DNA from: Christensenellaceae bacterium
GTDB lineage: Bacteria > Bacillota > Clostridia > Christensenellales > CAG-138
Direction of reading: 5' to 3'
Length of the DNA: 56,122 bases
NCBI GenBank assembly: GCA_022510765.1
Contig: JAFLSU010000011.1
Location: forward strand, 1 to 56,122
The notes under the pieces are model-generated. The model saw nothing but the letters and a program-made list of their open reading frames with translations. It searched no databases and was not told the origin of the DNA. Within the stretch, counting starts at the first letter, position 1. Each line of letters starts with the position of its first letter. This document shows positions 15,819-36,645 of the stretch, piece after piece. A program made the position numbers and the translations under genes.

Positions 15819-15894
15819 TGGAGCTGGTGATCAGATTCGAACTGACTACCTCGTCATTACCAATGACGTGCTCTACCTACTGAGCTACACCAGC
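15819..15894 (-). tRNA. tRNA-Thr (anticodon GGT)
   Basis: A 76-nt tRNA including an encoded CCA. The acceptor stem GCTGGTG pairs with CACCAGC, with discriminator T. The D-arm has the GCTCAGTAGGTAGAGC core. The anticodon stem CGTCA/TGACG carries loop TTGGTAA, giving anticodon GGT. The T-arm contains GTTCGAATC. A consensus promoter lies just upstream and a terminator just downstream, so it is a single-gene unit. Confidence 0.97.
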
Positions 15895-35168: not shown

Positions 35169-35305
35169 ATACACCAACGAACGCATTTGATTGATCTTTG
35201 GTTGTCCACGGCAATCGCTTACGAAATAGCGAATACTTTAAGAAAATAATCATGAGAAAGGGAGCACTTTTTACGTTTGAGATTAATGCAACCTTTATTT
35301 ATAAC
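35169..35305. other. Non-coding stretch before the hairpin array
   Basis: No gene, promoter pair or repeat that I can support. AAAGGGAG at 35267-35274 looks like a ribosome binding site but no ORF follows. Confidence 0.4.
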
Positions 35306-35421
35306 AGTGATGTTTGCTGCTTCGCAGCAAGTGAAGTTGCGTCGATGCCGCAGTGAGTCTTGTGCTTACGCACAAAGTGAAGCAAGGTGTTCCGCTTCAC
35401 GTCCAAATGACATTTCGTTTT
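35306..35421 (+). ncRNA. Array of four short hairpins with GTGAAG-type linkers
   Basis: Four small hairpins in a row: 35314-35330 (TTGCTG/CAGCAA, loop CTTCG), 35338-35352 (TGCG/CGCA, weak), 35360-35375 (TTGTGC/GCACAA, loop TTAC) and 35377-35400 (GTGAAGC/GCTTCAC). They are joined by near-identical linkers GTGAAG, GTGAGT and GTGAAG. A terminator follows directly at 35422, so the unit looks like a short transcribed structured RNA or the end of a mobile repeat element. No ORF is inside. The direction (+) is inferred only from the terminator, which is nearly symmetrical. Confidence 0.45.
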
Positions 35422-35460
35422 AAAAAGCCCAATTTGTCTTTCGGATAAATTGGGCTTTTT
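35422..35460 (+). terminator. Strong terminator after the hairpin array
   Basis: Perfect 14-bp stem AAAAAGCCCAATTT / AAATTGGGCTTTTT with an 11-nt loop. The A- and T-runs make it usable in both directions. Confidence 0.88.
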
Positions 35461-35502: not shown

Positions 35503-35566
35503 ATGACCAAAAGTAGTGCGTACCGTCTTTGGTCAAAATCATTTGCGGCTTTTTCGCACTACTTTT
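35503..35566. repeat. Two interleaved inverted repeats
   Basis: TGACCAAA (35503-35510) pairs with TTTGGTCA (35528-35535), while AAAAGTAGTGCG (35509-35520) pairs with CGCACTACTTTT (35555-35566). The order is interleaved, so the RNA could form either of two hairpins or a pseudoknot. It lies 55 bp downstream of the minus-strand acyltransferase gene and could end its mRNA. Confidence 0.7.
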
Positions 35567-35620: not shown

Positions 35621-36466
35621 TTATATTGGAATAATGCCGCAAGCAAAGCCAAATAGTTCTATGTGTTCAAATGCTAATTCTTGAAGAGATGTCGCATTTG
35701 CAGGAAGCACTTTTCCTGTTTCATGTCCGAAAAGGTATTCTGTTGCCTGTTTTGAATCATTGCAAGATCCGATAACAGAGAAGTTGGCAGCAAACTGTTT
35801 TATGTTTGACCTTTGGGAAAGGTTCTTTACCATGGGAGGATATAGTAGCCAACTATAGCAGAGAAACGCTTTGTACTGTACTGCTGGAAAATGCGCTGAA
35901 AAGAAGCGTTTTGCACTTTGAAAGGATGCTTTAACTGATTGGGGACTCAAATCTGCATTCTCCTGGATGTGACAGTTTATCACGGGCGCACCGGCTGGTA
36001 ATGCCACCTTTTGCTCTTTCGTAAATGTTATGTACGGCTCACCGATCGTTTCTTCGTCCAGATATATCATTTCAAAGGGTTGAAACTGTAATGCGCCGAT
36101 TTTAAATATAACGACGTTCATTATGTGCCGAAACCATATAACGTCTCCCTTTGTGATACCAACCCTGCCGGTTTTCTTGTAGTACAGTTTTGCCCGTAAG
36201 GAAACATCTCTAAAGGTGTCAAAAATAATGCTGTCAGGAATTCCTTTAGCTTTGTATTCGTCATACTTACGTAGCAAAAGATAAGTAACGATGGTCAATC
36301 GTGTTAATGGCATACGCTTGCATAAAGCAAAGTCAAAATCTTCCCCATGATATGCGGTTTCCGCAATTTCATTAATTAACTTTTCATCCTTACGAATTTT
36401 TTGCAGAACTGCCTGCTCAATATCGCGTATGTAATGCAACTCCGACATCAGTGTTTCTAAAATCAT
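35621..36466 (-). CDS. Acyltransferase-domain protein (GNAT-like C-terminal domain)
   Basis: A 281-residue protein resembling the two-domain 'GNAT-like' acyltransferases of Bacillota. The N-terminal helical part (about 1-120) is followed by the recognisable C-terminal domain: IFKIGALQFQPFEMIYL, then VINCHIQENADLSPQSVKASFQSAKRFFSAHFP, then AFLCYSWLLYPPM and SNIKQFAANFSVIG. The substrate is unknown. The start at 36466 is chosen for AGGAG 9-10 nt upstream; the frame stays open to 36607, but that part runs through inverted repeats and looks untranslated. It is a single gene between structured non-coding regions, suggesting an accessory origin. Confidence 0.78.
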   Translation of the reverse strand: MILETLMSELHYIRDIEQAVLQKIRKDEKLINEIAETAYHGEDFDFALCKRMPLTRLTIVTYLLLRKYDEYKAKGIPDSIIFDTFRDVSLRAKLYYKKTGRVGITKGDVIWFRHIMNVVIFKIGALQFQPFEMIYLDEETIGEPYITFTKEQKVALPAGAPVINCHIQENADLSPQSVKASFQSAKRFFSAHFPAVQYKAFLCYSWLLYPPMVKNLSQRSNIKQFAANFSVIGSCNDSKQATEYLFGHETGKVLPANATSLQELAFEHIELFGFACGIIPI

Positions 36467-36492
36467 ATATGCACTCCTAAAATTGTTAATTA

Positions 36493-36645
36493 GTACCTTT
36501 TTTCTTTCCTGTTCACATAGTTTTACAGCAAAAATCGCCCCTGATAAAATCAGAGGCGACAGTAATATCCGTGCGAAAAGGTACTCAATCGGCGGACAAA
36601 ATGGCACTTGATTTTATCAGTATAATAGAAATCATTTTGTCCACC
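36493..36645. repeat. Nested inverted repeats upstream of the acyltransferase gene
   Basis: Three sets: GTACCTTTT (36493-36501) with AAAAGGTAC (36576-36584), enclosing a hairpin TCGCCCCTGAT-AAA-ATCAGAGGCGA (36535-36559); CTGATAAAATCA (36541-36552) with TGATTTTATCAG (36609-36620); and GGCGGACAAAATG (about 36590-36602) with CATTTTGTCCACC (about 36633-36645). The remaining gap up to 36832 shows nothing further. Confidence 0.6.

Follow-up and report, generated by a model that had tools for sequence, protein, structure and literature searches.

The stretch of DNA analysed here (the window) covers 56,122 nucleotides of a contig from a Christensenellaceae bacterium, and the feature of interest lies in a gap of about 530 bp between the stop of a phosphofructokinase gene (35090) and the end of a convergent GNAT-like gene (35621). 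No credible ORF is found between these two genes, as the first-pass annotation of this DNA had stated. The convergent gene (35621-36607) carries NAT_N and GNAT_C domains (PF18082, PF18164), and in the genus relatives that were read, other genes come after phosphofructokinase. The interval 35307-35460 is occupied by a string of hairpins on constant linkers with a terminator at its end (Table 1). The small stem-loops described earlier on GTGAAG/GTGAGT/GTGAAG linkers are present, with an extra linker, GTGATG, and with one of the four hairpins weak. The segment 35377-35400 folds as a hairpin of its own (GTGAAGC..GCTTCAC), in which the last linker pairs with CTTCAC. The closing structure, first reported as a 14-bp terminator, is a terminator-like inverted repeat of 17 bp (arms 35422-35438 and 35444-35460, 94% complementary). 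It has the GC-containing stem followed by a T run of an intrinsic terminator, the stem ending in GGGCTTTTT; it is plausible on both strands because of its A run, and it is unlisted by a strict terminator scan, which takes the T run as part of the stem. The whole had been called unlike terminator structure, which is right for the array but not for the element, of which a real terminator is part. Rfam models at the gathering threshold gave no match to the array, the sole match in the window being a tRNA (15822-15894), and no rRNA match is present at the array. Between the terminator and the GNAT-like gene, the interval 35509-35566 contains a 12-bp perfect inverted repeat (AAAAGTAGTGCG..CGCACTACTTTT), overlapped by an alternative pairing (TGACCAAA..TTTGGTCA).

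Table 1. Parts of the hairpin array and its surroundings in the window.
Feature	Position	Strand	Basis
Possible promoter into the array, TTGAGA-17 nt-TATAAC	35277-35305	+	By eye; weak, chance-expected at such density
Linker 1, GTGATG	35307-35312	+	Sequence, pattern match
Hairpin H0, TTTGCTGC-TTC-GCAGCAA	35313-35330	+	Sequence, alignment, fold
Linker 2, GTGAAG	35331-35336	+	Sequence
Hairpin H1, TTGCGTCGATGCCGCA, weaker, 4 pairs	35337-35352	+	Sequence, alignment
Linker 3, GTGAGT (decayed GTGAAG)	35353-35358	+	Sequence, alignment
Hairpin H2, CTTGTGCTTACGCACAAA (CTTGTGC-TTAC-GCACAAA)	35359-35376	+	Sequence, alignment
Linker 4, GTGAAG (35377-35382), CAAGGTGTTCC turn and first reverse linker CTTCAC	35377-35400	+	Alignment
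Reverse (CTTCAC-linked) half, remnant GTCCAAATGACATTTCGTT	35401-35419	+	Assigned by reading; compare L040, GTCCGAAGGACA...ACTTCGTT
Closing terminator, AAAAAGCCCAATTTGTC-loop-GATAAATTGGGCTTTTT	35422-35460	.	Inverted-repeat search, alignment with L321

Folded as single-stranded DNA, the minimum free energy structure of the array is exactly the hairpin string with its linkers unpaired (z -6.6), and folding as RNA gives a z of -5.6 and a long-range structure that competes with the string. The window has one chain of four identical 4-mers separated by three stems, and none of 150 dinucleotide shuffles has any, in a test that required stems of at least 4 bp and the shared GTGA as linker, a linker length picked after the array had been seen. 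A criterion based on 5-mer linkers misses the window array because its linkers differ.

Further copies, whose search had been recommended from the start, were found in the same genome and in many related ones. On other contigs of the window's genome lie a second array (C49:4820) and a decayed copy of H2 with the linker that follows it (C56:28984-29021). Of 151 genomes from the family and order, 33 contain the pattern GTGAWGTT-N6-18-AAGTGAWG, in more than 100 units against about 6 for a reversed control pattern; in a 398-genome sample of the phylum, matches outside the order stayed at the control level and were not palindromic. Of 66 distinct units, 60 have inserts between linkers that form stems of 4 bp or more, versus 7.2 when the inserts are shuffled, and all four Watson-Crick pair types occur at stem pairs 4 and 5, so that the units of related genomes display the covariation that had also been proposed as a check. 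In one genome (G075), 380 kb contain 14 clusters of GTGAAGT units, all of them intergenic and in mixed orientation to the neighbouring genes, divergent and antisense included; most of these clusters represent an element with four hairpins, some 95 bp long, whose flanks are unrelated. The sequence upstream of the arrays shows no conservation among copies. Regions downstream of phosphofructokinase in genus relatives carry no array (about half of them were read directly, and the unit search returned the window locus only), and a conserved RNA locus linked to phosphofructokinase was rejected, the array being present in the window locus only among the genus loci searched. Carriage of the window array by a phage or plasmid was rejected as well, the H1 module having neither a viral nor a plasmid match. 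With a looser pattern, at least 120 viral stretches match.

The loci L318-L325 were retrieved by searching for the conserved 3' end. The plan of the complete element is seen in full in L321, L322, L324, L325 and L040 (a named MAG contig, Oscillospiraceae bacterium HAN078); L350 also shows the whole element. The first half consists of three GTGAAG-linked hairpins followed by a turn containing AAGTGTTCCGC, and the second half of roughly three hairpins linked by CTTCAC; GCGGAACACTT-AGTT and a terminator come next, and the core of the latter, TTTGTC..GACAAA, is common to the window and the full elements. Aligned with L002, L040, L321, L325 and L350, the window copy has in common with them the turn (CAAGGTGTTCC, matching AAGTGTTCCGC), the 3' end and the terminator, and a compensated pair change (T-A to C-G) distinguishes its terminator from that of L321. 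On its left it carries an additional hairpin (H0, found in the window copy only among the aligned full elements), and it is without the third hairpin and the greater part of the reverse half. H1 is decayed by one base, its counterpart in L040 (TTGCGGCGATGCCGCA) having a full 6-bp stem. The window array combines hairpins on a constant 7-nt linker of an S23-clade type, the turn of the family and the terminator, with one linker (GTGAGT) decayed.

In L350, L322 and L027, a gene for a four-helix-bundle protein lies next to the array, and its product was identified by PF05635 (23S_rRNA_IVP) and TIGR02436 as a member of the S23 family. A homopentamer has been described for S23 (PMC4990558), and 2rld, the one solved relative found, has five chains. 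The first-pass annotation had mentioned similar GTGAAG hairpin strings of gut Clostridia near small accessory genes and suggested looking at what flanks other copies; the genes beside the complete copies are these S23/PF05635 genes. A scan for PF05635 was positive in 23 of 59 genomes, including most of the array-bearing ones, and among genomes of families without the GTGAWG pattern in 1 of 21 (G098), which has arrays with other linkers. Eight array-bearing genomes gave no PF05635 match (G003, G022, G054, G102, G107, G110, G113 and G127, some of these assemblies being incomplete). The window's genome has no PF05635 gene, and near the window array there is neither an S23 gene nor a detectable remnant of one; the window array is therefore an orphan, gene-less copy and not a complete element.

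Each of the 42 S23 loci first read, by eye and unblinded, has beside the gene either hairpins arrayed on 7-nt linkers or bare heptamers in tandem, for the most part in inverted orientation. They comprise 30 order-level loci, which are not independent of each other, two gut phage contigs and ten plasmid loci from Bacteroidota, Spirochaetota, Bacillota, Cyanobacteriota and Chloroflexota, phyla on whose plasmids S23/IVP matches were obtained by tblastn, the protein family thus being widespread. The linkers are locus-specific (GTGAAGT, GTGATGT, ATGATGT, GTTATAT, GCTAAAT, ACGATGT, GTGAAAT, ATGAAAT, ATGATAT, GAGAAAT). When the repeats were called de novo, 12 of 21 parsed S23 loci had at least two identical 6-mers between hairpins, and among 59 control loci one reached two and none three; repeats at a lag of 7 were found in 17 of 42 S23 loci versus 1 of 60 controls, other lags giving 0-1. 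In a later sample of 50 previously unread loci across the phylum, repeats passing the heptamer criterion lay near the gene in 25 and far from it in 6, with three near for period 11 and one for period 6; half of these S23 loci fall below the fixed heptamer criterion, many showing shorter or imperfect repeats by eye. Within this sample, four loci (L407, L412, L427 and L431) are intervening sequences of the classical type, located in 23S rRNA, and short repeated heptamers, for example GCTAGAA and TCCGACT, were seen by eye at their ends. On plasmids, S23 genes with heptamer arrays were also noticed between genes of restriction or defence operons (L359, L361, L362 and L367), splitting the pairs DISARM drmD / BREX pglX, helicase / N-6 methylase and DUF1156 / Swt1-HEPN, and in L358 such a gene with its array lies between hsdS and hsdR. 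At least two more families of arrays, on different linkers, were noticed in the genome G075 (loci L298-L317), one made of GTGAATTG arrays and one seen as an intergenic surplus of CGGATTTC, which matches the GAGAAATC linkers beside its own S23 gene.

Linker and protein vary together. On a tree of 41 S23 proteins, the hairpin or heptamer type of the array requires 2 changes against 13.5 when shuffled, and for the hairpin loci the linker core requires 4 changes against 12.8 (minimum 8), the linker labels having been assigned by reading. Linkers and proteins might travel together by simple linkage, so this co-variation could also arise without recognition.

Comparisons of related sites bear on movement. 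At the junction of plsC and a HAD gene in one genus, two genomes (G042 and G059) have an array-gene-array arrangement, and in nine genomes the flanking genes abut or overlap. On Nostoc plasmids, about 195 bp found in four relatives are replaced by an S23 gene with TAATTCG arrays, with the junctions at the arrays; that this is a replacement rather than a clean insertion counts against the mobile-element reading given below. For two further operons, plasmid relatives align over shorter spans that omit the S23 stretch, as judged from match lengths only. Among clostridial S23 loci, 13 of 32 have tRNA genes, compared with 4 of 46 control loci, and many arrays are bordered by terminators; this suggests a target preference. 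At L337, L339, L340 and L348, the 3' site of tRNA-Gln(ctg) is apparently occupied by S23 elements in several genera (the tRNA was called in three of these loci and recognised by eye in L348).

From these sequence comparisons, mobility of the S23 array elements is supported, and we regard it as likely that the window array is an orphan, partly deleted copy of such an S23-protein mobile element, with the arrays as its ends and probably as binding sites. The ends of a complete element consist of short hairpins on a constant 7-nt linker (here GTGAAGT), with forward linkers in one half and reverse linkers in the other; a terminator lies outermost, and the gene of the S23/IVP four-helix-bundle protein adjoins the ends. 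The protein, a pentamer in solved relatives, is predicted to recognise the repeated linker, which would be displayed single-stranded between hairpins or, in other lineages, as bare tandem heptamers; recognition would mark the ends of the element for copying or insertion. We infer that the S23 protein binds the linker and that the arrays are ends in the mechanistic sense. Arrays that lack a gene, like the one in the window, would have spread in trans or been left behind after gene loss. To our knowledge, S23 proteins have no recognised catalytic site, so that a partner enzyme would be needed. The lack of an S23 gene or remnant at the window copy, and of PF05635 in several array-bearing genomes, weakens this reading.

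Among the alternatives, the one that survives best holds that the array is transcribed from a promoter of its own, up to its terminator, into a small RNA acting in trans, the hairpins being selected as RNA. What speaks for it positively is structure: the strong terminator at the end, the RNA fold and the covarying stems. A promoter-like sequence stands directly upstream, but this match is non-significant (no site passed the stricter rule of the promoter scan, and 1.1 are expected by chance) and the upstream sequence is unconserved among copies. The mixed orientation to genes, the unrelated sites of the G075 copies and the missing array downstream of phosphofructokinase in the genus relatives read also argue against it, and covariation may come as well from hairpin-templated DNA repair. 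We consider an RNA role unlikely. In a second, somewhat less probable alternative, the arrays are inert neutral repeats of no present function whose stems are kept paired only by template-switch repair at replication. The visible decay of the window copy (the H1 mismatch, the GTGAGT linker and the lost reverse half) fits it, and this copy itself may be inert, but the association with S23 genes, the co-variation of linker and protein and the filled and empty sites would be left unexplained. It is more improbable still, and already disfavoured, that the arrays are 3'-end or terminator structures of the host merely targeted by S23 elements: arrays do often abut terminators and the tRNA excess agrees with it, but at the plsC-HAD junction arrays and gene come together and none of the nine empty sites has the arrays, and a linker type that tracks the protein clade is not expected from target choice. 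Very improbable, finally, is a REP-like origin, in which a Y1/HUH transposase (RAYT) would spread the palindromes and GTGAAG would correspond to the GTAG foot: the likeness described below notwithstanding, this mobiliser was rejected, Y1_Tnp (PF01797) being absent from the array-carrying genomes G000 (that of the window), G075, G071 and G149, and no array unit lying beside the Y1 genes that were found.

Against these alternatives, the S23-element reading agrees with the half of the first-pass interpretation that saw the non-coding end of a mobile repeat family, which is well supported by copies, covarying stems, filled and empty sites and S23 genes; taken as a whole (a structured non-coding RNA or such an end), that interpretation is partly supported. 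The orphan array points to a job for the S23 protein and to a source for puzzling short repeats in many bacteria. A broader proposal, which we put forward tentatively and hold at slightly below even chances, is that S23/IVP proteins are the specificity factors of an unrecognised, multi-phylum class of transposase-less elements with ends made of 7-nt arrays, the motif being bound by a pentameric ring, and that 23S rRNA intervening sequences, heptamers of cyanobacteria and others and clostridial hairpin arrays are all forms of it. If the link is true, S23 function and the unexplained bacterial heptamers both become directly testable, the linker beside each S23 protein would predict its binding target, with many natural linker-protein pairs existing, and annotators would gain a name for a common intergenic repeat class of gut Clostridia.

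The closest known system is that of the intervening sequences (IVS) of 23S rRNA, which share with the present elements the protein family (S23/IVP; PF05635, TIGR02436) and inverted repeats at the ends. They are regarded as selfish elements, their S23 proteins have no known function and the mobility of rRNA insertions is a hypothesis (PMC4990558). Unlike them, the elements described here are intergenic, have ends made of hairpin-linker or tandem-heptamer arrays and leave gene-less copies scattered; the window array, between phosphofructokinase and the GNAT-like gene, is not an insertion inside a 23S or 16S rRNA gene. REP palindromes mobilised by RAYT, of which GTAG-tagged families have been described, are likewise short, dispersed and intergenic, with a constant short foot and frequent inverted pairing (PMC3733652). 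Here, in contrast, the foot is a 7-nt linker that varies with the S23 clade (GTGAAG/GTGATG in the window, not GTAG or CGTC) and stems differ in almost every unit. MITEs (Bcr1, RUP, NEMIS) resemble the arrays in being small and non-coding and in their presumed reliance on a protein supplied from elsewhere; unlike in MITEs, no terminal inverted repeat of a known transposase was recognised, the ends of the arrays being hairpins. The STRR-like heptamers of cyanobacteria and Xanthomonas, finally, form 7-nt intergenic arrays in inverted pairs as seen here, with about four units preferred in Xanthomonas and Nostoc (PMC4692102). That paper reports no general link of heptamers to mobile elements and does not mention S23 or helix bundles, and in the open-access literature searched, no paper was found that ties genes of the S23 or four-helix-bundle kind to arrays of heptamers or hairpins. 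Unlike those heptamers as described, similar arrays here flank S23 genes in several phyla.
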